The notes under the pieces: generated by a model
The model's input: the letters and a program-made list of their open reading frames with translations, nothing else
Database searches by the model: none
What the model was told of the DNA's origin: nothing
Program-made: the position numbers and the translations under genes
Assembly: GCA_021372515.1 (NCBI GenBank)
Contig: JAJFUG010000119.1
Location: forward strand, 1 to 62,376
Direction: 5' to 3'
DNA length: 62,376 nt
Source of the DNA: a bacterium
GTDB lineage: Bacteria > Gemmatimonadota > Glassbacteria > GWA2-58-10
Shown here: positions 24,593 to 40,179 of the stretch, in pieces
Layout: every line of letters starts with the position of its first letter
Position numbering within the stretch: the stretch's first letter is position 1

Positions 24593-27500
24593 ATGACTCT
24601 TCTGCACTCTGCCAGACAAAGATATCGGCGGCTGCCGGGGATTCTGACCGGCGTGCTGATCCTGCTCGCCTGTGTCGCCCCGACACTGGTCGCGCAGGAC
24701 GATTCGACCTATGTGACCACCAAGCTGCCGGTCGAGCTGCCCAAGCCTGTCACCAACCGTCTGGGCTACAAGACCTACCAACCCATCCTGTCCACCAAAG
24801 AGCCGGCCCGCCGGGATATCGATTACGACCTGGAAACCGGGGCCGTGAACGAGGACATCGTCATTCCCTCCGATAAGGGCATGATGGTGCTCGAGGTGCG
24901 CCACAGCTCGGTCTTCGATTTCCTGCAGGAACGGGCCAAGGTCAAGGAAGACACCCTGTTCGAGGCGATCTCCAACCAGTACCTCACCGGCGAAGTGGCC
25001 AGCGCGGCCAGTCAGCAGAAACGCGGCATGATGCCGGAGATCAACCTGCCCGACCTGATGCCCAAGGCCCTGGCCTCGATCATCGGCGAGGGCACCGGCT
25101 CGCTGTCTATCCACGGCCGCAGCGTGACCGAAATGAGCGGCACCAGCACGTTCCAGAAGCCGGAGGACACCGGCCTGTTCCGCCGCCAGAGCAAGTTCCC
25201 GCGCCTGAAACTGGACCAGCGCCAGCAGATCAACATCGAGGGCGTGATCGGGACCAAGATCCACGTGTTCGTGGACTACAACTCGCAGAACGAGTTTGCC
25301 AACCGCAACCGGATCGAGGTGGAGTACCAGGGCGAGGAGGACGAGATCCTGCAGAGCCTGCAACTGGGCGATGTCAACCTGAGCCTGCCGCCCAGCATGC
25401 TGGTGGCGGCCAACATCCCGCGCGGCAATTTCGGGATCATGGGCCAGACCCGCCTGGGAGCCTTGACCACCACGTTCATCGCCTCGAAGGAAGAGGGCGA
25501 GTCCAGCAAGAAGAACATCAAGATACCGGTCTCCGGGGACGCCGAGGCCAGCGACTCGACATTTTTCCGGGATGTCAATTTCAGCCGCAACCGTCATTTC
25601 CTGCTGATCGACCCGGGCCTGATCGCCACGAGCCACATCAAGTTCCTCGACCGCGGCGGCGCCCCGCTGGCCGATGAGACGAAGCGGCCGACCAAGGTGC
25701 GGGTGTTCAAGGACGACAACAAGTTCGAAAACAACAACCAGGGCGAGAACCAGGCCCGTCCCGGCGTGATGTACCTCGACCCGACCAACATCGACCCCGA
25801 TTCCCCCTACAACGAGTTCGGCTTCTTCAACGAAATGGTGATCAACACCGATTTCGTGCTCGAACAGTGCGGCATCGCGATCAGCTTCATCGGCTGGGTG
25901 GCCGACGATGAGAAGATCGGGACGATCTACACCGAGCAGGGCGGCCGCCAGGTGGGCACGAGCGACGGGGACACGCTGCGCCTGAAGCTCATCAAGACCG
26001 CCCTGATGAGCCCGGAGCACCCCTCCTGGAACCTGATGCTGCGCAACGTCTACTCGTTCGGCAGCGGCTCCCAGATCAGCCAGCAGACCTTTGCGATCGA
26101 CATCTTCACCAACCAGACCCCGCCGCGCTACGATGAGGGCGGCCGCACCTTCCTCGACATCTTCGGCCTGGACAACGACGCCGACACGAAGGTGGACCGC
26201 ATCTACATCGATTTCCAGCACGGCCTGATCTTCTTCCCCTCGCTGGAGCCGTTCAACAAGCCCTACGACGAGGACGGCAAGGAGTTCAACCTGCTGACCC
26301 GCAACCAGCAGATGTACGTGGAGGACGACCCCAGCCGCCTGAACACCCTCGAGCACCAGAAATACAACATCGTGGTGCGCTACAACCGCGCCGAGGGCTC
26401 CTCGGCCCGCACTTTCGAGCTGGGCGCGATGCAGATCATCAAGGACTCAGAGCGTATCTACATGAACGACAAGATCCTGCGCCGGGACACGGACTACACG
26501 ATCGACTACGAGTTCGGCCAGCTCACGCTTAAACCCGGACTGGAAATTCCACCCAACAGCGAGATCAAGGTGGATTACGAGCAGGTGGCTCTTTTCCAGA
26601 CCGGCAACACCAGCCTGTTCGGTTTCCACAACGAGTACGAGCTTGACCCGCAGCGCAAGAACTACCTGACCAGCACGCTGTTCATCCAGAACGTGGAGAG
26701 CGTGGACCGCTCGTTCGTGCGCCTGGGCGATGAGCCCAAGACCAATATTCTGGGCGAGTTCGGCGGCAAGTTCGAGTTCGACAGCGAGCGGCTGACCGAA
26801 TGGATCAACCGTCTGCCCATGCTGGAGAGCCGCACACCCTCCAAGCTGGACATTACCGGCGGCCTGGCGTTCAGCAACCCCAACCCCAACACCCGCGGCG
26901 GCGTGCTCATCGAGGATTTCGAGACCTCGAAGATCGAGAACCCGAGCCTGATGATGGCGTTCCAGAGCTGGCGCCTGGGCAGCGTGCCCAAGTCCGCGGA
27001 CGGCAATTTCGACCTGTTCGAGAGGGCCCGCGCCGGAGATGTCTGGTGGTTCGACCCCTACTACCTGACCCAGAACCGCTACGGGTTCAACGAAGAGGAT
27101 GTCTACGGCCGGATAGAGGGCCGCACCGAGCTGAACCGCGACGTGCCGGTGCAGGTGATGTCGTTCATTTTCACCCCGCGCGGTAACAACGAGCTGGAGC
27201 GCCGCCAGAGCTGGCGCAGCGTGACCCAGCCGGTGAGCGACACCGGCGTGCTGGGCATGAACGACCGCGAGTTCCTGCAGGTCTATATCGCCACCGGCCG
27301 CGACCAGGGCAAGCTGATCATCGATTTCGGACGGGTGGATGAGGACCAGGTGCGGTTCAACAAGGAAGGCGAGTTGGTGGGGGTGGGCAACCTGGACACC
27401 GAGGACCGCAATTTCGACGGCCGGCTGGACTACAACGAAGACACCGGTCTGGACGGGGTCGAGGGGGCGGACGGCGCGAATGTGCTGGGCGATGACGGCA

Positions 27501-30500
27501 ACGACGACTACTACCGCCCGCTGGACGGCGGGGTGGACGCGCGCCGCCTGAACCTGACCGAGGGCAACAACAAGGGGCAGATCGGCAACAATTTCGACAC
27601 CGAGGACCTGAACCACAACGGCGCCCTGGACCAGCAGGAACGCCTCTTCCGCGTCACCATCGACCTGGAGCGCATGGAGATCATACCGCCGCCCGGCGTG
27701 TTCATCCCCGAGGTGGACCGCAAGGTGCTGGTCGACCAGGTGGATTTCGACCCGAACGGGGTGCGCAAGGACCTGGTCAACATCCTGGGCGCCGACAACT
27801 GGTATCTGCTCGAAATCCCGCTACCCAAGGAAGGCAGCCGGTACGAGCAGTACTACGAACACATAAACAACCCCTCGCTGTCCAACATCCTGCAGGTGCG
27901 CCTGTCGTTCTACGATTTCGCCAAGATCGACACGGTCGATTTCGCGGCGATCAATTTCGTGGGCAACCGGTTCAAGCCCAACGAGGAGGGCGTGGTCCGC
28001 CGTCTGGAGGAGACCCTGGTCGACACCCTGGCCTCGGACACGCTCTACACCCCGGCCAGCGAGGAGGAGGCCGCGCGCGAGGCCGCCCTGAGCGCCGTGG
28101 CCAACCACGGCGCGGTGACGATCAGCTCGATCAACACGATCCTGAACAACGAGTACTATCCGCCGCCCACGATCAGCGCCACGATCAACAAGTACAACCG
28201 GAGCGGCAACACCGAGAGTTTCACCGCGCAGGAGGCGGCCCTGGCGATCAAGTTTGAGGCCCTCCAGCGCGGCTACGAGGGTTGGGCGCTCAAGGCCGAG
28301 AACAACCAGCAGAGCTACCTGGATTACGCCGCCATGAGCTTTTTCATCAACGGGCGGCAGGGCTACTACGAGCCGAAACCCATTTTCCTGCTGCGTATCG
28401 GCACGGACCGCGACAATTTCTACGAGTATTCCTGTCCGGTGGATACGGGCTGGAAAGAGGTGGATGTCCCGTTCAGCGGCTTCCTCACCCTGAAAGACAG
28501 CCTGCAGGGAGCGCTCAACCTGAACCAGATCCAGAATTTCACGCAGGATGTCAAGCGCGGCAATTACCGGATCAAGGGCAATCCCTCGTTGACCAAGATT
28601 TCGATCATGACCGTGGGCGTGGCCAATGAGAACAGCGGCGTGCCGGTCTCGGGCGAGGTCTGGATCGATGACGTGCGCCTGACCGACGTGATCAAGGAGT
28701 TCGGTCTGAACACCCGTCTGCAGGTGGAGGCGCAGCTATCGGACCTCGGCCGGCTGAGTTTCGGCATCAGCAACCGGGACAATAAGTTCAGGAACCTGAA
28801 CGAATCGATCCCCACCGCCAGCTCGTTCAAGTACAATGTCGGCGGCACGATCAACCTCGACCGTTTCACGCCCGAGGACTGGGGCTTGCGGCTGCCGGTC
28901 AACCTCAACACCCAGTACCAGCTCGACCTGCCCCGTTTCCATCCAGGAAGCGAGGATGTGACGATCTTATCCCAGCAAAACAAGGATTTCTACAAGACGG
29001 AAACGAAGACCAACACGTTCAATTTCAGCTATACCAAGAGCCGCGGGACCTCGCTGGCCTCGAAGCTGCTTTTCGACCGTCTGACCAGCCAGGTCAGCTA
29101 CAGCAGCAACACCCGCACGGCGCCGCGTAACCTGAACTCGTCGCTGTCGATCAACAGCCGTATCGCCTACCGCGCCACCCTGCCGCGCGAGGCCGAGGTG
29201 GCCGTGTTCCCGCCCTCGGCTTTCGGTTGGGCCAAGTACGTGCCGCTGCCGTATTTCCTCAAGAACAACACGCTGACCAATGACCTGGCCGGCGCCCGTT
29301 TCCGTTACATGCCGAACGATTTCGAGCTTTCCACCACCACGGATTACCGCAAAACCCAGTCTTACGACAACACCTCGAAACTGTTCCGCCTGGACTCGGT
29401 CTACACCTCGACCAACATCGCCCGGGTCCAGTACCGACCGTTCCAGAGCATCCAGAGCACGTTCAACCTCCAGACCCAGCGGAACATGCAGGAGACCGCC
29501 CGGGGGAGCAAGCTGCTCGGGATGAACATCGGCAACGAGATCGCCCGCCGTCAGCAGGCCACGCTGGACCTCAGCCCGCGCTCGCTGCCGTGGCTGCAGC
29601 CGACTTACCGTTTCAGCGCGAACTACAACAACGACCACAACCCGCAGTACGCCCAGAGCTTCGGGAACAACGGCGATTTCCGCAAGTTCGACGCGGACAA
29701 CCAGCAGACCGCCGGTCTGCGTTTCATGCTGCCGCAGTTCCGTCAGTCCCTGGCCGGGGTCCGTCTCACCGACCCGGACAAGGCCTCGGGCAAGAAAGAC
29801 GAGAAGGCGGAGGCCAGCTCCTCAGCGGCCTACAAGCGGCAGCCGCGGCGCACGCCGGGTGCAGCGGCTGCCGGCGCCAAGGGTGGAGCGGAAGGCGGTG
29901 GGGGGTTCTTTGACCGCTACCTGTTCCATCCGATAAACTACATGCTCGACAGCTTCGATCCGCTGTCGTTCCAGGCCACCAAGAGGGAGCAGGATCGCTG
30001 GGAAAAAATGGAGCGCAACCCGGGTTTCCTCTACCAGCTCGGGCTCGAGGGCCTGGACGAGGCGACCCGTCTGCGGCCCAGCCTGGGCGACACCGCGGAT
30101 TTCAGCTCCTACACCTGGAGCTTCACCCGCGCCTACCAGAGCGGCATCCGTCTGCCCGGCAACGCCAAGATCGGCTCGAACTATGTCGAGCAGGGCAGCA
30201 ACAACCATACGATCAACGGCTATCGCGCCACCCGCGAGAAAGGGCCGGAGCTGACTTTCGATTACTCGAATGTCTACCTGCCGCCGTTCGTGCGGAGTTT
30301 CCTGTTCAGTGTCGATGTGTCCTCGGGCTACGAGCTGAAAAAGAGCATCACCGAGAACAGCATCAAGATATCCGATGACAACCCGGCCGGTCTGGAAGTG
30401 ATGAGCCGCGAGGAGCGCTGGAACCCCAAGGCCCGCGTGGCGGCCAACTGGGGCAAGAGCGGCACGGTGCGCACCCTGTACACCAAGAGCAGCTCGGTAA

Positions 30501-30889
30501 AGCGGGACGAGCTTCTGGACCAGAGCCGCCGAGCCCTGACCGTATCGGACGAGGACGCGTTCAACTTGCAGTACAGTTTCAGCGCCCCGCACGGCATCAA
30601 CCTGCCGCTGTTGCGCGCACTGAAAATCCAGAGCAACGTGCGTGCGGCCATGGATGTACGCAAGCGTATCTCGCAGAACCTGACCCAGGTCTTGAGCGCG
30701 GTCGGCGAGGTTGAGGAGGAGATCATCAACCGCGACACCGAGGACCTGACAATCACGCCCACCCTTTCCTACGATTTCGCGCAGGTGATCGGGAGCCTGT
30801 CGGCTTCCTACAACACCAACAAGGACCGCAAGAACGGAACCACGCGCGTGACGATCATGATGAAGATGAGTGTCACCCTGGATTTCTGA
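24593..30889 (+). CDS. sprA: SprA-family type IX secretion translocon / cell-surface protein
   Basis: 2098 residues. A signal peptide (hydrophobic stretch LPGILTGVLILLACVAPTL) is followed by an N-terminal region typical of SprA: long beta-rich segments, INIEGVIGTKIHVFVDYNSQ, an IIGEGTGSLSIHG motif and PRGNFGIMGQTRLGALTTT. The C-terminal third alternates strands typical of a large outer-membrane barrel and ends in SVTLDF. SprA (about 2400 residues in Flavobacterium) is the 36-strand translocon of the T9SS and is characteristic of FCB bacteria. Acidic calcium-site-like runs (around 930-1000, for example DTEDRNFDGRLDYNEDTG) are notable. Other T9SS genes are not in the window. Confidence 0.92.
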   Translation: MTLLHSARQRYRRLPGILTGVLILLACVAPTLVAQDDSTYVTTKLPVELPKPVTNRLGYKTYQPILSTKEPARRDIDYDLETGAVNEDIVIPSDKGMMVLEVRHSSVFDFLQERAKVKEDTLFEAISNQYLTGEVASAASQQKRGMMPEINLPDLMPKALASIIGEGTGSLSIHGRSVTEMSGTSTFQKPEDTGLFRRQSKFPRLKLDQRQQINIEGVIGTKIHVFVDYNSQNEFANRNRIEVEYQGEEDEILQSLQLGDVNLSLPPSMLVAANIPRGNFGIMGQTRLGALTTTFIASKEEGESSKKNIKIPVSGDAEASDSTFFRDVNFSRNRHFLLIDPGLIATSHIKFLDRGGAPLADETKRPTKVRVFKDDNKFENNNQGENQARPGVMYLDPTNIDPDSPYNEFGFFNEMVINTDFVLEQCGIAISFIGWVADDEKIGTIYTEQGGRQVGTSDGDTLRLKLIKTALMSPEHPSWNLMLRNVYSFGSGSQISQQTFAIDIFTNQTPPRYDEGGRTFLDIFGLDNDADTKVDRIYIDFQHGLIFFPSLEPFNKPYDEDGKEFNLLTRNQQMYVEDDPSRLNTLEHQKYNIVVRYNRAEGSSARTFELGAMQIIKDSERIYMNDKILRRDTDYTIDYEFGQLTLKPGLEIPPNSEIKVDYEQVALFQTGNTSLFGFHNEYELDPQRKNYLTSTLFIQNVESVDRSFVRLGDEPKTNILGEFGGKFEFDSERLTEWINRLPMLESRTPSKLDITGGLAFSNPNPNTRGGVLIEDFETSKIENPSLMMAFQSWRLGSVPKSADGNFDLFERARAGDVWWFDPYYLTQNRYGFNEEDVYGRIEGRTELNRDVPVQVMSFIFTPRGNNELERRQSWRSVTQPVSDTGVLGMNDREFLQVYIATGRDQGKLIIDFGRVDEDQVRFNKEGELVGVGNLDTEDRNFDGRLDYNEDTGLDGVEGADGANVLGDDGNDDYYRPLDGGVDARRLNLTEGNNKGQIGNNFDTEDLNHNGALDQQERLFRVTIDLERMEIIPPPGVFIPEVDRKVLVDQVDFDPNGVRKDLVNILGADNWYLLEIPLPKEGSRYEQYYEHINNPSLSNILQVRLSFYDFAKIDTVDFAAINFVGNRFKPNEEGVVRRLEETLVDTLASDTLYTPASEEEAAREAALSAVANHGAVTISSINTILNNEYYPPPTISATINKYNRSGNTESFTAQEAALAIKFEALQRGYEGWALKAENNQQSYLDYAAMSFFINGRQGYYEPKPIFLLRIGTDRDNFYEYSCPVDTGWKEVDVPFSGFLTLKDSLQGALNLNQIQNFTQDVKRGNYRIKGNPSLTKISIMTVGVANENSGVPVSGEVWIDDVRLTDVIKEFGLNTRLQVEAQLSDLGRLSFGISNRDNKFRNLNESIPTASSFKYNVGGTINLDRFTPEDWGLRLPVNLNTQYQLDLPRFHPGSEDVTILSQQNKDFYKTETKTNTFNFSYTKSRGTSLASKLLFDRLTSQVSYSSNTRTAPRNLNSSLSINSRIAYRATLPREAEVAVFPPSAFGWAKYVPLPYFLKNNTLTNDLAGARFRYMPNDFELSTTTDYRKTQSYDNTSKLFRLDSVYTSTNIARVQYRPFQSIQSTFNLQTQRNMQETARGSKLLGMNIGNEIARRQQATLDLSPRSLPWLQPTYRFSANYNNDHNPQYAQSFGNNGDFRKFDADNQQTAGLRFMLPQFRQSLAGVRLTDPDKASGKKDEKAEASSSAAYKRQPRRTPGAAAAGAKGGAEGGGGFFDRYLFHPINYMLDSFDPLSFQATKREQDRWEKMERNPGFLYQLGLEGLDEATRLRPSLGDTADFSSYTWSFTRAYQSGIRLPGNAKIGSNYVEQGSNNHTINGYRATREKGPELTFDYSNVYLPPFVRSFLFSVDVSSGYELKKSITENSIKISDDNPAGLEVMSREERWNPKARVAANWGKSGTVRTLYTKSSSVKRDELLDQSRRALTVSDEDAFNLQYSFSAPHGINLPLLRALKIQSNVRAAMDVRKRISQNLTQVLSAVGEVEEEIINRDTEDLTITPTLSYDFAQVIGSLSASYNTNKDRKNGTTRVTIMMKMSVTLDF

Positions 30890-32763: not shown

Positions 32764-32792
32764 TTGATTTATTGCCACGGCTGCGGTACAAT
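32764..32792 (+). promoter_or_regulatory. Sigma-70-type promoter for the phospho-switch/Mla block
   Basis: TTGATT (32764-32769), a 17-base spacer, TACAAT (32787-32792), 25 bases before the ATG at 32818. Suggests the block from 32818 onward has its own promoter. Confidence 0.55.
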
Positions 32793-32817: not shown

Positions 32818-34140
32818 ATGCAGGCAGCCGAGCTCGAGCAGGTGGTCTCCAGCCAGCAGCGTGAGATCGAATCGTTGCGGCGCAGGCTGGCGTTTTTTTC
32901 CAGCATGATCGAGGTAAGTGTAATCATCAGTTCCACTTTTGAGCTGGACGAGTTGATCCGCCGTGTACTGGAGACCAGCCAGCGGGTGATGGACTCCGAG
33001 GCCAGCAACCTGATGCTGATCGACGAGGCCACCGGCCGTCTGGAGTGCAGGATCGCTCTGGGCGAGGTGGGCGATAGGCTCAAAGGGGGCATGAGCCTGG
33101 AGATCGGCCAGGGCATCGCCGGCTGGGTGGCCCAGACCGGCAAGTCGCTGGTGGTGCCGGATGTGTCCAGGGATGAGCGTTTCTGCCCGGATGTGGACCG
33201 CCAGACCGGTTTTATCACCCGCAGCATTCTCTGCGCTCCACTGATTGTCCAGAACCGGGTGATCGGGGTGGCCGAGGTTCTCAACCGCACGGACGGCAAG
33301 AGTTTCGATGCCGAGGACCTGCGCCTGTTCGAGACGTTCTGCCGGGCGGTGGCGGTGGCGGTGCAGAACGCGCAGATGCACAAGCGGCTCGTGCAATCAC
33401 AATTGATGGAGCAACAACTCGAAATGGCTTCAACCATACAGCAGGGTTTTCTGCCGCGCTCGTTTTCGATGACAAAGGAAGGGCTTTTCGAGATCGCCGC
33501 GCGCAACCTTCCCGCCAGCATGGTGGGCGGCGATTTCTACGACTGCATCGAGCTGCGGCCCGAGCTGTTCGGCCTGACCATCGGGGATGTCTCGGGCAAG
33601 GGTGTGCCGGCGGCGCTGTACATGGCGCGCCTGCTGAGCGATTTCCGGTTCTATGCCCACCAGGCCGAGGAACCGGTGCCCACGATGCACATCCTGAACG
33701 AGATGCTGACCGAGCGCAGCCAGCAGGGCATGTTCGTGACCATGGTCTACCTGACCCTGGACACGGACAGCGGTACACTGTCGTATGTCAACGCCGGCCA
33801 CCTGCCACCCTACCTCTGCCAGGGCAGCGGCTCGGGGCTGCGGCGGCTCACCGGCGGCGAGGGTATCCCGCTGGGCATCCAGGACCCGGCCGAGTTCAGC
33901 GAGGGCAGGGTGACGCTCGAGCGGGGGGACACGCTGGTGATGTTCTCCGACGGGGTGATGGACGCCAAGAACACCGTGGGGGAGGTTTTCACCCTGGAGG
34001 GCATCGAGCGGCTGCTCGGTGGGTTCCACGGGTCGGCCTCCGCGCTGGTCGACCGGATCATCGCTGCGGTGCTCGAGCATTGCGGAACGGAAAAGCAGTT
34101 CGACGACATCACGGTCCTTGTCCTGAGGTGGCTGGGATAA
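32818..34140 (+). CDS. GAF-domain PP2C (RsbU/SpoIIE-type) serine phosphatase
   Basis: 440 residues from ATG 32818, just after AGGAGGAG. A short N-terminal coiled coil (about 1-35), a GAF sensor (about 40-195, LEIGQGIAGWVAQTGKSLVV, RSILCAPLIVQNRVIGVAEV), a helical linker and a PP2C domain (about 210-440) with the metal-binding segments MVGGDFYDC, GDVSGKGVPAALYMA and FSDGVMDAKN. These enzymes dephosphorylate STAS-domain proteins. Its stop overlaps the next start (TAATG), so phosphatase and kinase are coupled. There is no transmembrane segment; the GAF signal is cytosolic and unknown. Confidence 0.94.
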   Translation: MQAAELEQVVSSQQREIESLRRRLAFFSSMIEVSVIISSTFELDELIRRVLETSQRVMDSEASNLMLIDEATGRLECRIALGEVGDRLKGGMSLEIGQGIAGWVAQTGKSLVVPDVSRDERFCPDVDRQTGFITRSILCAPLIVQNRVIGVAEVLNRTDGKSFDAEDLRLFETFCRAVAVAVQNAQMHKRLVQSQLMEQQLEMASTIQQGFLPRSFSMTKEGLFEIAARNLPASMVGGDFYDCIELRPELFGLTIGDVSGKGVPAALYMARLLSDFRFYAHQAEEPVPTMHILNEMLTERSQQGMFVTMVYLTLDTDSGTLSYVNAGHLPPYLCQGSGSGLRRLTGGEGIPLGIQDPAEFSEGRVTLERGDTLVMFSDGVMDAKNTVGEVFTLEGIERLLGGFHGSASALVDRIIAAVLEHCGTEKQFDDITVLVLRWLG

Positions 34141-34592
34141 TGCCGCAGGAATATCTCGACCTCAAGGTCCCCTCCAACCCCAAGCTGCTGCGTCTGGTCC
34201 GGCGGACCGTGGCCGCGGCCTGCGAGGTGATGGGGTTCGATCCGCGCGAGATCAACGCGATCACCCTGGCGGTGGATGAGAGCTGCACCAACATCATCCG
34301 TCATTGCGGCGGCGGCGGGTACCACGGCGATATCCTGGTGCGTCTGCGCATGCTGCCCGACCGCCTGGTGGTCACGATCCGCGACTACGGCGGAGCGATC
34401 GACCTGGCCCGCCTTAACGATTGCCTGGAGCAGCACCGTCGCGAGCTGCAGGACCAGCGCAGCGTGCGTCCCGGGGGGCTGGGAGTTATGCTCATCCATT
34501 CGGTGATGGACCGGGTCCGTTACCGCACGAACCAGGACCGCGGCACGGTGCTGCGCCTGGTCAAGTACCTGGGCAAGAGGAAAGGGGACTGA
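34140..34592 (+). CDS. RsbW-type anti-sigma / serine-protein kinase (HATPase)
   Basis: 150 residues. GHKL ATPase features: N box AVDESCTNIIRH (E47, N51), G1 box IRDYGGAID, G2 box PGGLGVMLI. Kinases of this family phosphorylate a serine in a STAS partner and, in the classical pathway, sequester a sigma factor when the partner is phosphorylated. No sigma factor gene is near, so the target of this kinase may be the STAS protein alone. It starts within the stop of the phosphatase and ends two bases before the STAS start. Confidence 0.93.
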   Translation: MPQEYLDLKVPSNPKLLRLVRRTVAAACEVMGFDPREINAITLAVDESCTNIIRHCGGGGYHGDILVRLRMLPDRLVVTIRDYGGAIDLARLNDCLEQHRRELQDQRSVRPGGLGVMLIHSVMDRVRYRTNQDRGTVLRLVKYLGKRKGD

Positions 34593-34594
34593 GC

Positions 34595-34927
34595 TTGGAA
34601 GTTTCGGTCAACAGGGAGGGCGAGCTTGCGGTAATCTCGGTCAGCGGGGATGTCGACCTCTACAGCAGTCCCGGCATGCGCAAGGCGATCACCGCGCAGG
34701 CCAAGAAAAAGGTCCCGCTGATAGTGATCGACCTCGAAGGCGTGGACTACATGGACTCCAGCGGTGTGGCCACCCTGGTCGAGGGCTTGCAGCTGTCCGG
34801 GCGCTACGGCGGACGTTTCCGTATCGCCGGGCTGAAACCCTCGGTGCGCGAGGTGTTCGAGCTGTCACGCCTGGACAAGGTCTTCTCGATCTTCGCCTCC
34901 AGGGAAGAGGCCTCCACGGCCGGCTGA
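34595..34927 (+). CDS. STAS-domain protein: RsbV-like anti-anti-sigma factor or MlaB-like subunit
   Basis: 110 residues from TTG 34595 (AAGGGG 9 bases upstream). A single STAS domain: VNREGELAVISVSGDVDLYS, LIVIDLEGVDYMDSSGVATL with candidate phospho-serine S56, then GLKPSVREVFELSRLDKVF. It lies after a PP2C phosphatase and an RsbW kinase, and 57 bases before mlaE. In Escherichia coli a single STAS protein, MlaB, is a subunit of the MlaFEDB lipid transporter. Hence it may be the RsbV of a partner-switching pathway, MlaB of the adjacent transporter, or both. The serine favours phosphorylation. Confidence 0.9.
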   Translation: MEVSVNREGELAVISVSGDVDLYSSPGMRKAITAQAKKKVPLIVIDLEGVDYMDSSGVATLVEGLQLSGRYGGRFRIAGLKPSVREVFELSRLDKVFSIFASREEASTAG

Positions 34928-34984
34928 GAGCATGCCGCGGCGAGGACCGGCGTAAAACTATAAGCCCACACGGAGCATGTTTTC

Positions 34985-35812
34985 ATGGCGGAGTCGGAAC
35001 AGGCCGGACAGGGCTTGGTCGTCTCGGTTGTCGGCCGGATCGGCCGTTGGGGTTTCGGCCTGTTCGAGCAGGTGCGGCTCATCCGCCGGCTCCTCCGGGA
35101 CAGCCTCTACTGGACTTTTGTCGCCCCGCTGACCGGCAAGGGCCTGCGCGTGGGCAGCACGTTCGACGAGATGGTCAAGGTGGGGGTGAGCGCGGTGCCC
35201 ATCGTGGCGCTGATCTCGTTCTCCATCGGCCTGATCCTGGCCATGCAGAGCGCCTACCAGCTCCAGCAGTTCGGCGCCACCATTTTCACCGCCAACCTGG
35301 TGGCCGTGGCCCAGACCCGCGAGCTGGGCCCCCTGATGACCGCGATCATCGTGGCCGGGCGCTCGGGCAGCGGGATCGCCGCCGAGATCGGCTCGATGAA
35401 GGTGGGCGAGGAGATCGACGCGCTCAGGTCGATGGGGTTCAACCCGGTCAAGTTCCTGGTGGTGCCCAAGCTGCTGGCCCTGGCGATCATGGTCCCCTGC
35501 CTGACTGTGCTGTCCGATTTCATCGGCATCGGCGGCGGGTTCACCATGGGCGTGCTGAACCTGGACCTGGGTTTTGTGCGCTACCTCAACCGCACGATCC
35601 AGGCGCTGGTGCTCAAGGATATCGTGACCGGCCTGATCAAGAGTTGGGTCTTCGCCCTGCTGATCGGGCTGACCGGCTGCTACATGGGCTTTGCGGTCGA
35701 GGGCGGGGCCGAGGGGGTGGGACGGCGCACCACGCTGTCGGTGGTGGTCTCCATTTTTCTGATCATCCTTGCGGACGCCTTTTTCACCGCTGTTTTCTAC
35801 TACCTGTGGTGA
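34985..35812 (+). CDS. mlaE: MlaE-family lipid ABC transporter permease
   Basis: 275 residues. Permease of the MlaE/YrbE type: an N-terminal amphipathic interfacial region, then five or six membrane helices with the family signatures VALISFSIGLILAMQSAYQL, GRSGSGIAAEIGSMKVGEEI, MGFNPVKFLVVPK and a C-terminal ADAFFTAVFYYLW. Transports phospholipids between the inner and outer membranes, maintaining outer-membrane asymmetry. It is followed two bases later by the ATPase gene and then by mlaD. An N-terminal extension of about 20 residues before the interfacial helix is mildly longer than usual. Confidence 0.94.
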   Translation: MAESEQAGQGLVVSVVGRIGRWGFGLFEQVRLIRRLLRDSLYWTFVAPLTGKGLRVGSTFDEMVKVGVSAVPIVALISFSIGLILAMQSAYQLQQFGATIFTANLVAVAQTRELGPLMTAIIVAGRSGSGIAAEIGSMKVGEEIDALRSMGFNPVKFLVVPKLLALAIMVPCLTVLSDFIGIGGGFTMGVLNLDLGFVRYLNRTIQALVLKDIVTGLIKSWVFALLIGLTGCYMGFAVEGGAEGVGRRTTLSVVVSIFLIILADAFFTAVFYYLW

Positions 35813-35814
35813 GC

Positions 35815-36633
35815 ATGGAAAACCACGAGCCGGCCCTGGACGAGAAGATCCTGGAAGTGCGCGACCTGAGCGTGGCCTACAACGACCGCCCGGTGCTGGA
35901 CGGGGTGAGCATGGACGTGCGCCGGGGCGAGACGATGGTGATCCTGGGCGGCAGCGGCAGCGGCAAGAGCACCCTGCTGCGCCACATCATCGGCCTGGAG
36001 CGGCCCGCCGGCGGACAGATACTGATCAAGGGCCAGGACATCACGCGCATGGGCGAGGCGGAGCTGTACGACATCCTGCGCAAGGTGGGGGTGGTGTTCC
36101 AGAGCGCGGCGATGTTCAACTCGATGAGCGTGGGTGACAATGTGGCCCTGCCGCTCCGGGAGCACACCCGCCTGGAGGAATCGACAATCCAGATCATGAC
36201 CCGGATCAAGCTGGAGATGGTGGGGCTGAGCGGGTTCGAGAACTACATGCCCTCGGAGCTGTCGGGCGGCATGCGCAAGCGCGCCGCGTTCGCCCGGGCC
36301 ATCGCCATGGACCCGGAGATACTGTTCTGCGACGAGCCCTCGGCCGGGCTCGACCCGATCATCGGCGCCGGCCTGGACCAGCTTATCCTGAAGCTCAAGC
36401 GGGCGCTCAAGATGACTATCGTGGTGGTGACCCACGAGATGGAATCGGTCTACACCATCGCCGACAGGCTTATCATGCTGAACCGCGGGGACATCATTTT
36501 CGCGGGCACCCTGGCCGAGTTCCGCGCCAGCGGCAACGAGCGGGTGCGACAGTTCATCGAGCGCCAGCCCGAGGTCCGCGACGACCAGGACACCGGGCGC
36601 TACGTGCGCGCCCTGACCGAGAACCGATTCTGA
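35815..36633 (+). CDS. mlaF: MlaF-family ABC transporter ATP-binding protein
   Basis: 272 residues from ATG 35815, two bases after the mlaE stop. Walker A GGSGSGKS (45-52), Q loop VVFQS (94-98), signature LSGGM (149-153, the MlaF form rather than LSGGQ), Walker B EILFCDEPSAGLD (168-180) and H loop VVTHEM. It powers lipid transport with MlaE. The tail beyond residue 240 is highly charged (RQFIERQPEVRDDQDTG). The C-terminal part of MlaF contacts MlaB in the proteobacterial complex, which fits the STAS protein upstream. Confidence 0.94.
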   Translation: MENHEPALDEKILEVRDLSVAYNDRPVLDGVSMDVRRGETMVILGGSGSGKSTLLRHIIGLERPAGGQILIKGQDITRMGEAELYDILRKVGVVFQSAAMFNSMSVGDNVALPLREHTRLEESTIQIMTRIKLEMVGLSGFENYMPSELSGGMRKRAAFARAIAMDPEILFCDEPSAGLDPIIGAGLDQLILKLKRALKMTIVVVTHEMESVYTIADRLIMLNRGDIIFAGTLAEFRASGNERVRQFIERQPEVRDDQDTGRYVRALTENRF

Positions 36634-36679
36634 AGCCTTACGGCGCTCCACTCTGTCCGCCAGCCACGGGACCGACTAC

Positions 36680-37588
36680 ATGGGAAGAAACGCGCGCTAC
36701 CGCTCCTCCGAGATCAAGGCCGGTGTCTGGATCCTGATCTCAGTACTGATCCTGTCCGCATTCCTGGTCGGGATCAGCGGGGCCAAGTTCTGGAAGCCGG
36801 TGGACCATTACCGGGTGCACCTGTCCTACATCGGAGGGCTGGAGACCGGTTCGCCGGTGCGCATGGGCGGGATGCTGGTGGGTAAAATAAGCGACGTGAG
36901 CCTCCTGGAGGGCGGTGACGCCCTGGAGCTGACTGTCGAGGTGCCGCAGGGACTGCCGGTCAAGGCCGGCACGACCGCCTACCTCAGCTTCGTCTCGATC
37001 ACCAGCGAGCAGCACCTGGAGCTGAACCCCGGCGCGGGCGGCGCCGAGTTGCTGACGCCCGGCGACCTGATCCAGAGCAAGGAGATGCTGGAACTGTCGG
37101 ACGTGCTGGAGAAATTCGACACGGTGGGTGACACGGTCCAGGCGATCCTGCACTCGGTGCACAGTCTGCTCAGCCCGCAGAACACGGCCCGGATCGACTC
37201 GATCATCGAGCAGACCAACTCGGTGCTGCGCACGGTCAACCCGCGGGTCAGCGAGGTGCTGACCAACATGAACGAGGCCGCCGCCTCGATGGATTCCCTG
37301 CTGCGTAACATCAGCCGGTTCGTGGACGGGGCCGACACCTCGTTCCAGCGCCTGGCCGGCAGCGCCCAGGTGCTGATCGCCCAGGCCGGGACAACCCTGG
37401 CCCGGATCGACACCACGGCCCAGGGCGCCAACGCCCTGCTCACGACCAACTCCGGCAGCCTGACCCAGGCCCTGGAGAACATCCGCCAGGCCAGCTATGA
37501 CCTGCACCTGCTCAGCGATGCGGTCAAGGACAACCCGTTCCTGCTCATCCGGGCTATCCCCAAGAAAGAACGCAAGTTACAGGAGTAG
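36680..37588 (+). CDS. mlaD: MlaD-family MCE periplasmic lipid-binding protein
   Basis: 302 residues. One N-terminal membrane anchor (about 15-35), one MCE domain (about 40-115, with HLSYIGGLETGSPVRMGGML) and a long helical C-terminal region (about 130-295) rich in heptad-like leucines. The MCE domain forms a hexameric ring on MlaE. The helical tail is longer than in Escherichia coli MlaD (183 residues) and resembles the needle-forming helices of PqiB- and LetB-like or actinobacterial Mce proteins, perhaps extending the lipid tunnel toward the outer membrane. Last gene of the block. Confidence 0.93.
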   Translation: MGRNARYRSSEIKAGVWILISVLILSAFLVGISGAKFWKPVDHYRVHLSYIGGLETGSPVRMGGMLVGKISDVSLLEGGDALELTVEVPQGLPVKAGTTAYLSFVSITSEQHLELNPGAGGAELLTPGDLIQSKEMLELSDVLEKFDTVGDTVQAILHSVHSLLSPQNTARIDSIIEQTNSVLRTVNPRVSEVLTNMNEAAASMDSLLRNISRFVDGADTSFQRLAGSAQVLIAQAGTTLARIDTTAQGANALLTTNSGSLTQALENIRQASYDLHLLSDAVKDNPFLLIRAIPKKERKLQE

Positions 37589-37737
37589 ACGAACCTCAGG
37601 CCCCGGCCGGGGTATCAAGGTTAAGCGACCGAAAGGTCCACTTTACAGCCTCGGTATTGCACAGGGCCGCTGTCGCTGGCGCGAGGGCATGCGGCTCTTC
37701 TGGTATCCATACAACAAGTAGGAAGGTTTTTAAAGCT

Positions 37738-40179
37738 ATGCCGGAAACGAGACTACAGTTCAGTAAGGACGGGGAAGAGTTCGAGACCGCCGACATCCTG
37801 CCGGTGCTGCCGCTCAGGGACGTGGTGGTGTTCCCCTACATGGTTATCCCGCTGATGGTCGGCCGGCCCAACTCCGTGGCCGGGATCGAGTCGGCCATGC
37901 TGGCCGAGCGCCTGATCCTGCTGGTGTCGCAGCTGGACGGCGAGAACGAGGAGCCCTCCGGGAAAGACCTCAACCGCGTGGGGGTGGTCGGCCGGATTCT
38001 GCAATCGGTGCGCCTGCCGGACGGCACCCTGAAGGTGCTGGTCGAGGGGCTGGAAAAGGCGCGCATCCGCCGTTACCTGCCGGGCCAGGAATACCTGCGC
38101 GCCCGTTTCGAGGTGCTGCCGTTCGACCTGGCTGGCGGCAAGGAACTGCAGGCCCTGAGCCGTAAGGCCATGCGCCTGTTCGAGGAATACGTCAAGCTCA
38201 ACAGCCGTCTGCCGGATGAGCTGCTCACCGCGACCCAGAACGTGGACAACCTTCTGCGCCAGGGCTACATCATCGCCGGCCACCTTCTGATCCGCATGAC
38301 CGACAAGCAGCGTATCCTGGAGGCCGAATCCCTGGAGCGGCATTTCGCCCTGGTCTGCCAGTACCTGAACGCGGAGATGGAGATCCTGCGCCTGGAGCGC
38401 AAGATCGACGACAACGTCAAGCGCCAGATCATGAAGAACCAGCGCGAGTTCTACCTCCAGGAGCAGCTCAAGGCGATCCACCGCGAGCTGGGCCACGATG
38501 AGGAGGGCTACGATGAGATCGAGGAGCTGCGCGCCCAGTTGCAGAAAAAAAAGCTGCCCGCCGAGGTGCTGGCCAAGGCCGAGAAGGAAGTCACCAAGCT
38601 CGCGCGCATGAGCGCGATGAGCCCCGAGGCCACCGTGGTGCGCAACTATCTGGACTGGATCGTCTCGCTGCCCTGGCACGAGGCCACCAAGAGCCGCCTG
38701 GAGGTGGACGAGGTGGCCCGTATCCTGGACGAGGACCATTACGGCCTGCAGAAGATCAAGGACCGCATCGTGGAGTATATCGCCGTGGCCAAGCTGGCCG
38801 GCGAGCTGCGCGGCCCGATCCTCTGCTTTGTCGGGCCTCCGGGCGTGGGCAAGACCTCGCTCGGCCAGTCCATCGCCCGGGCGCTGGGACGCAAGATGAC
38901 CCGCCTGTCCGTGGGCGGCGTGCGGGACGAGGCCGAGATACGCGGCCACCGCCGCACTTACATCGGGGCCATGCCGGGCAAGATCATCCAGTCGATGAAG
39001 CGGGTCGGGGTGATAAACCCCGTGATCCTGATCGACGAGATCGACAAGCTGAGCACCGACTACCGGGGCGATCCCTCCTCGGCCCTGCTCGAGGTGCTGG
39101 ATCCGGAGCAGAATACCCAGTTCGTGGACCATTACATGGAGGTGGACTACGACCTTTCCAAGGTCATGTTCATCACCACGGCCAACTACGCGCACCAGAT
39201 ACCCGACCCGCTGCGCGACCGCATGGAGCTGATCACCTTGCCGGGCTACCTTCACGATGAGAAGCGCGAGATCGCCCGCCGGTTCCTGGTGCCCAAGCAG
39301 ATCAAGGCCCACGGGATCAAGCCGGAGCAGGTGGAGATCACCGACCGGACCATCGACTCGGTGATCGAGCACTACACCCGTGAGGCCGGGGTGCGCACCC
39401 TGGAGCGCTCCATCGAGGCGATCTGCCGAAAGAGCGCGCGCAAGCTGGCCGAGGGCCGCAAGCGCCGCAAGCCGATCCGGGTCACCCCCGGCGTGCTGGG
39501 TGAGTTCCTGGGCGCGCCCAAGTTCCTGGACACCGAACTGGAGGGCGCCGACCGGGTGGGCCTGGCCAACGGCATGGCCTGGACCGGCGCGGGCGGGGCG
39601 CTGCTGCAGATCGAGGTGGCGACTCTGGACGGCAAGGGCAAGCTGACCCTGACCGGCAAGCTGGGCGATGTGATGAAAGAGTCGGCCGAGGCGGCGCTGA
39701 CCTACGTGCGCTCGCGTTGGCGCGATTTCGGGCTGGAGGCGGATTTTTACCGCAAGCTGGACATCCATATCCACGTGCCGGAGGGGGCCACGCCCAAGGA
39801 CGGTCCCTCGGCCGGGGTGGCGATCGCCACGGCCATAGTGAGCGCCCTGAGCGGCGTGCCGGTGCGGCGGGATGTCTCCATGACCGGCGAGGTGACCCTG
39901 CGTGGACGGGTGCTGCCGGTGGGCGGGCTGAACGAGAAGACCGTGGCCGCCCTGCGCGCGGGCGTGAACGTGATAATCTGGCCGGCGGCCAACCGCAAGG
40001 ACCAGGAGGAGCTGCCGCGCGAGGTGCGCGAGCGCGCCGACATCCGTTTCGTGGAGTCGGTGGATGAGGCCCTGGCTATCGCCCTGGCCGCTCCGCTGCC
40101 CCCGGCCACGGGCCTGGGCCCGACGACCACGGCGCGTGAGGTGCAGGAAAGCGCCCCGGGCAGCCAGTACCAGCATTGA
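37738..40179 (+). CDS. lon: ATP-dependent protease Lon
   Basis: 813 residues from ATG 37738, preceded by AGGAAGG. An N-terminal LON substrate-binding domain (about 20-215; [20 protein letters not shown]), an AAA+ module with Walker A GPPGVGKT (about 365-372) and Walker B ILIDEIDK, and a C-terminal peptidase with catalytic Ser near 691 ([14 protein letters not shown]) and Lys near 736 ([15 protein letters not shown]). Cytosolic quality-control and regulatory protease. The gap after mlaD is 149 bases, so it probably has its own promoter. A REP-like hairpin follows the stop. Confidence 0.97.

Follow-up and report, generated by a model that had tools for sequence, protein, structure and literature searches.

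A phosphorylation switch gene set next to mlaEFD in Candidatus Glassbacteria suggests a phospho-gated lipid transporter

Can a partner switch of the kind known from sigma factors act directly on a lipid transporter? The question is raised by six genes on the forward strand of a contig from Candidatus Glassbacteria (an uncultured family in the phylum Gemmatimonadota), analyzed as one stretch of 62,376 nucleotides (the window), which encode in order a GAF-SpoIIE phosphatase, an RsbW-like kinase, a STAS protein, and the transporter proteins MlaE, MlaF, and MlaD. The position of the switch genes ahead of the Mla genes, together with an MlaF C-terminal tail similar to that of Escherichia coli, suggests that phosphorylation switches a lipid pump. 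We lean slightly toward the RsbV-type STAS protein being an MlaB-like subunit of MlaEFD whose phosphorylation at S55 gates MlaF/MlaE. The broader proposition, for which we see an even chance, is that a complete RsbU/RsbW/RsbV-type switch was recruited for direct gating of an ATP-binding cassette (ABC) lipid transporter; the STAS protein would then be both kinase substrate and MlaB-like subunit, and MlaF would replace the sigma factor. Both halves, the switch and the Mla transporter, are of known kinds; the combination was not found described in a literature search limited to openly licensed papers.

Open reading frame positions and Pfam matches established the six-gene order much as a sequence-only reading of this DNA had described it. 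The features of the locus are as follows (window coordinates).

32764..32792, + strand: sigma-70-like promoter candidate TTGATT-17-TACAAT, about 25 bases 5' of the phosphatase gene (consensus scan, 9/12 matches)
32818..34140, + strand: GAF-SpoIIE/PP2C serine phosphatase with an RsbU-like output domain, 440 amino acids (Pfam GAF 7e-20, SpoIIE 5e-48)
34140..34592, + strand: RsbW/SpoIIAB-like HATPase_c_2 kinase, 150 amino acids (Pfam HATPase_c_2 4e-25)
34595..34927, + strand: STAS protein, 110 amino acids, TTG start, phosphoacceptor candidate S55 in MDSSG (Pfam STAS 2e-21)
34928..34984, + strand: 57-nucleotide gap between the STAS gene and mlaE
34985..35812, + strand: MlaE permease, 275 amino acids (Pfam MlaE 1e-78)
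35815..36633, + strand: MlaF ATPase, 272 amino acids, C-terminal tail ending GRYVRALTENRF (NCBIfam and PDB matches)
36596..36619, + strand: codons of the MlaF tail motif G261-R-Y263-V-R-A-L267-T268 (alignment with E. coli MlaF)
36680..37588, + strand: MlaD/MCE protein, 302 amino acids, long form (Pfam MlaD 2e-11)

The family was sampled with six genomes from five genera (this genome and five relatives from four further genera), and all six carried the phosphatase-kinase-STAS-mlaE-mlaF-mlaD order on one strand, with per-gene identities to the five relatives of about 45-81%. Because the order, which the sequence-only reading had proposed to look for in related genomes, recurred in 5/5 further family members spanning four further genera, it is more than a chance arrangement. 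Beyond the family, the kinase profile, which gave strong matches in the six family genomes, found a single marginal match (6e-13) among 389 other genomes of the phylum, and this belonged to an ordinary STAS-RsbW-SpoIIE set. STAS, RsbW, and SpoIIE neighbors were absent from all 60 other mlaE loci of the phylum, among them the second copies of the six family genomes, some of these stretches being cut by contig ends. The restriction to Glassbacteria holds within the sampled phylum only.

The spacing between the genes is uneven. Overlaps or two-base gaps throughout had been claimed, and these were observed between phosphatase and kinase (-1, the kinase start and the phosphatase stop sharing one base), kinase and STAS gene (+2), and mlaE and mlaF (+2), but not before mlaE (+57) or mlaD (+46). 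The phosphatase, kinase, and STAS genes overlap or sit a few bases apart in all six genomes, whereas the distance from the STAS gene to mlaE is 57 nucleotides here and 60, 82, 97, 211, and 296 nucleotides in the five relatives. The locus therefore consists of two same-strand blocks, phosphatase-kinase-STAS followed by mlaE-F-D, and is not evenly packed throughout. The six genes may be co-transcribed. A scan for consensus matches detected no terminator-like site between the STAS gene and mlaE. The promoter candidate upstream is weak, about one such site being expected by chance in the region.

The transporter half was assigned from profile and structure matches. MlaE carried the permease domain PF02405 at 264 bits against a cut-off of 22.5 and also exceeded the TIGR00056 cut-off. 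For MlaF, the closest NCBIfam model was that of MlaF itself (PRK11831, 3e-66, below the equivalog cut-off), the best PDB matches were solved MlaF structures, and the signature LSGGM, with its Met, was present in all six copies. MlaD scored 44.7 bits with PF02470 (cut-off 25.1), as expected of an MCE protein, and matched TIGR00996 at 1e-22, under the cut-off; the cut-off of the proteobacterial MlaD equivalog TIGR04430 was not reached. As judged from these matches, mlaE, mlaF, and the long mlaD make up a predicted three-component Mla system. A search of the genome (99.5% complete) with PF05494, the MlaC family, gave no match, leaving the E. coli-type six-part set incomplete; long MlaD forms and the absence of MlaC are usual outside Proteobacteria (PMC10665443). 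A second mlaE-mlaF-mlaD set lies on contig C160, adjoining a dnaB-like gene. No STAS gene was found beside it or beside the second Mla copies of the other five genomes, although two of the latter contigs (L119 and L120) stop at mlaE or shortly upstream of it. A separate mlaB next to other Mla genes, which the sequence-only reading had named as evidence against itself, was not seen at these second loci. Trees of MlaE and MlaF placed the two family copies in separate clades, with E. coli on a long branch, which is compatible with either gain or retention of the MlaF tail described below. Four divergent mlaE-F-D loci in other Gemmatimonadota (L167 183-3229, L168 500-3378, L169 5397-8236, and L171 5342-8190) have a gene overlapping the mlaD 3' end that encodes a GAF protein with HD/HD_5 domains, which is another signaling protein attached to a Mla-type operon.

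The STAS-linked MlaF proteins stand apart by their C-terminal ends. All six STAS-linked MlaF proteins have a C-terminal G-x-Y-x-R-A-L-T, i.e., GxYxxxL, and the Glassbacteria tail aligns with G-D-Y261-H-A-D-L265-L266 of E. coli MlaF. The last 20 residues of the 47 other MlaF proteins of the phylum contained no GxYxxxL (0/47), and the second MlaF copy of this genome lacks such a tail. A similar ending, DYRADLL, is found in MlaF of Pseudomonas aeruginosa, a species that also has MlaB, and the tail residues of E. coli MlaF dock at the MlaF-MlaB interface (PMC7367683). A Fisher value of 4e-8 for the tail motif was set aside as a probability, the six proteins sharing ancestry. The likeness of the MlaF helical subdomain to that of E. 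coli MlaF (55% for STAS-linked copies vs 51% for second copies and 43% elsewhere) was also discounted and lends weak support at most, because the difference is slight and PLREHT also occurs in MlaF proteins without a STAS partner.

The STAS protein retains the serine that a phospho-switch would need. Numbered from the TTG start, its motif reads M53-D54-S55-S56-G57, and the first serine aligns with SpoIIAA S58, RsbV S56, and E. coli MlaB T52. The phosphosite equivalent is, on this alignment, S55 rather than S56, the residue named by the sequence-only reading. As in partner-switch STAS proteins, the acceptor serine is kept: MDSSG was present and S55 invariant in the STAS proteins of all six family genomes, the stretch MDSSGVATLVEGLQL was invariant as well, and the structure model (predicted local distance difference test [pLDDT], 85) placed S55 at the start of helix 2. 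The protein scored above the cut-off of TIGR00377, a general anti-sigma antagonist model, and fell outside the MlaB family with 21.3 bits against the MlaB equivalog NF033618 (cut-off, 90). Its nearest solved structures, by both sequence and fold, were TM1442, RsbV, and SpoIIAA, with MlaB chains ranking only 47-48 in the fold comparison. These comparisons indicate an RsbV-like protein and not an MlaB orthologue, although it may work like MlaB without being MlaB by descent. The idea of an MlaB-like, gated STAS protein thus survives in terms of function, favored by an MlaF tail confined to STAS-linked copies, the lack of STAS genes at the second Mla loci, and the lack of a sigma gene at the locus and of a SigB/F/G-type sigma factor among those classified, but not in terms of ancestry, which is RsbV/SpoIIAA/TM1442-like.

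Two other STAS genes were found in the genome, on contigs C60 and C14. The STAS protein of C60 (L021 4027-4389) has DGFG, with G at the phosphoacceptor position, and no kinase was nearby in the stretch read. Contig C14 carries a second phospho-switch set (L020 4-4878; C14 approximately 34003-38877), composed of a SpoIIE phosphatase with a weak GAF match, a GAF-PAS-nucleotide cyclase, an RsbW-like kinase, and a STAS protein with NSVG, in which S occupies the acceptor position and N replaces Asp; no sigma gene was present among the open reading frames read. The higher conservation of the STAS protein than of the kinase at the mla-linked locus, once taken as a hint of a second binding partner, was dropped as an argument because the unrelated C14 STAS-kinase set shows the same pattern (76% vs 57%).

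The enzymes flanking this serine in the predicted switch look active, as judged from intact phosphatase and kinase motifs and the retained MDSSG of the STAS protein. An alignment of five intact family copies showed that the phosphatase retains all acidic motifs (GGD-x-YD, GDVSGKG, SDG, and DDIT), including the conserved metal-binding acids of SpoIIE/PP2C phosphatases in partner switches. The best solved relative of the kinase was B. subtilis RsbW (6m36, 7e-19), and its N-box residues E47 and N51 and its GGLG box, the HATPase_c_2 hallmarks of a partner-switch kinase, were invariant in 6/6 genomes. The nearest solved GAF domains of the phosphatase were those of cyclic-nucleotide phosphodiesterases, and its GAF region (window 33000-33360) contains a partial NKFDE-like stretch, NRTDGKSFDAEDL; both features make a cyclic nucleotide a candidate ligand. 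In one relative (L066 5980-7386 = L085 6588-7994), an in-frame stop splits the phosphatase gene inside the GAF region, while the kinase, STAS, and mla genes are intact, reflecting either an assembly error or a true loss. The intact motifs bear on another possibility, in which the STAS protein belongs to the transporter constitutively as an MlaB-like subunit, with the kinase and phosphatase acting elsewhere or with S55 being structural, as T52 may be in E. coli. The T52A variant of E. coli MlaB remains bound yet abolishes ATPase activity, which is hard to fit with simple phosphoregulation (PMC7367683, PMC5016091). With every catalytic motif kept and the phosphatase, kinase, and STAS genes overlapping or nearly touching in six genomes, the usual arrangement of a kinase-substrate set, we regard a constitutive subunit as highly improbable, the least probable of the alternatives.

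A phospho-switch of this type would ordinarily be expected to address a sigma factor, and the kinase may act as an anti-sigma factor whose sigma partner is unlinked, with the STAS protein as its antagonist and the mlaEFD adjacency incidental or reflecting merely a shared promoter. In sequence, the STAS protein comes nearest to RsbV and the kinase to RsbW, and the fold of the STAS model comes nearest to RsbV/SpoIIAA/TM1442; moreover, the CrsR-CrsA and HsbR-HsbA switches target RpoS (PMC6482189). Sixteen proteins with sigma-70 region 2 were found in the genome. Three were classified as RpoD/RpoS-like (group 2) and would be available to such a switch besides the flagellar sigma. RpoD itself is probably encoded by a 562-amino acid frame on contig C180, and the remaining proteins, mostly of about 185-290 amino acids, look like extracytoplasmic function sigma factors from their length and the sequences read. 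The variable gap between the STAS gene and mlaE, within a synteny that is conserved anyway, also agrees with an unlinked target. However, the four larger alternative sigma factors that were classified included none of SigB/F/G type, and the only WhiG/FliA-type sigma sits beside flhB, flhA, and flhF. The lack of an adjacent sigma factor gene, as the sequence-only reading had reported, was upheld: the upstream neighbors are ComEA-like and NtrC-like genes, the downstream neighbors encode Lon and an EngB-type GTPase, and the stretches read around the locus in all six family genomes contained no sigma gene, so that a conserved sigma factor in relatives, which would have spoken against a transporter target, was not seen. 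Control of an unlinked sigma also leaves unexplained why this MlaF copy alone has an E. coli-like tail. We consider it unlikely, although it is the strongest of the alternatives.

The phospho-gated transporter is proposed because of the E. coli MlaB results (PMC7367683, PMC5016091) and the gene anatomy described here. Phosphorylation of MlaB at T52 was proposed in two E. coli studies, one of which calls the question open (PMC5016091, PMC7367683); the kinase and phosphatase that would act there are not known. The T52E variant binds more weakly, and MlaB is required for MlaF to stay on MlaE (PMC7367683, PMC5016091). By analogy, the unphosphorylated STAS protein would bind MlaF at both its helical subdomain and its C-terminal tail, thereby keeping it attached to MlaE and lipid transport running. 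Phosphorylation of S55 by the RsbW-like kinase would release or disable the STAS subunit and turn the pump off, and a signal sensed by the GAF domain would lead the GAF-SpoIIE phosphatase to strip the phosphate and turn the pump on again. The kinase may also sequester the unphosphorylated STAS protein, as RsbW does with RsbV, which would make this a true partner switch with MlaF replacing the sigma factor.

Known systems share parts of this arrangement. With E. coli MlaFEDB, the locus shares the MlaE/MlaF/MlaD core and a single-domain STAS protein encoded alongside (PMC5016091, PMC7367683), as well as a Ser/Thr at the T52 position and an MlaF tail with Tyr followed by Leu four residues on; in contrast to E. 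coli, the STAS gene lies upstream of mlaE, its product resembles RsbV in sequence and fold, the locus adds a dedicated kinase-phosphatase pair, MlaD is long, and no MlaC was found. The SpoIIE-type phosphatase, HATPase_c_2 kinase with N-box Glu/Asn, and DSSG STAS protein are common to the B. subtilis RsbU-RsbW-RsbV and SpoIIE-SpoIIAB-SpoIIAA systems, but mlaEFD occupies the place next to the switch instead of a sigma gene, and a GAF sensor replaces the N-terminal domain of RsbU. In CrsR-CrsA and HsbR-HsbA, phosphatase, kinase, and STAS functions likewise form one unit whose target is not necessarily a neighbor; CrsR and HsbR combine the phosphatase and kinase domains in one response regulator acting on RpoS, whereas here they are separate proteins beside a transporter (PMC6482189). 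Veillonella parvula MlaEFD also has MlaE, MlaF, a long MlaD, and no MlaC, but it lacks STAS, kinase, and phosphatase genes, and its MlaF was modeled with a shorter tail (PMC10665443).

Several observations weigh against phospho-gating of the transporter. With 57-296 nucleotides between the STAS gene and mlaE, each block may have its own transcription or regulation. The STAS protein resembles RsbV rather than MlaB, and the phosphatase of one relative is interrupted by a stop inside its GAF domain. The tail motif is short, its occurrence in the six related MlaF proteins amounts to one evolutionary event, and the MlaF tail of E. coli is dispensable for MlaF-MlaB binding itself (PMC7367683); the tail is therefore supportive, not proof. 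In addition, the tail of our MlaF structure model (pLDDT, <50) is too uncertain to be judged, and the shorter tail modeled for Veillonella MlaF occurs where there is no MlaB (PMC10665443). Gene order alone is weak evidence because the family also conserves the genes around the locus (ComEA, NtrC-like, Lon, and GTPase); no Lon or NtrC relatives were found in the flanks of other mlaE loci, which thus give no clue to the ancestral neighborhood. The module could also control a different, non-sigma target, such as a cyclase, an envelope enzyme, or a protease, e.g., Lon, the next gene downstream, with the transporter only a neighbor. STAS switches with non-sigma outputs exist (SypE-SypA and HsbA-HsbD), but nothing specific points to such a target and the MlaF tail would again be left unexplained, making this improbable.

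If phospho-gating of MlaEFD holds true, an ABC transporter would join sigma factors as a target of partner switching, and outer-membrane lipid traffic could be tuned to a sensed signal. A locus that brings together an acceptor-serine STAS protein, a kinase, a phosphatase, and the transporter offers a direct system for testing the MlaB phosphorylation idea. Elsewhere in the window (24593-30889), this Glassbacteria genome encodes a 2098-amino acid SprA-like protein (PF14349, 5e-25), SprA being a component known from gliding and type 9 secretion in Bacteroidota.

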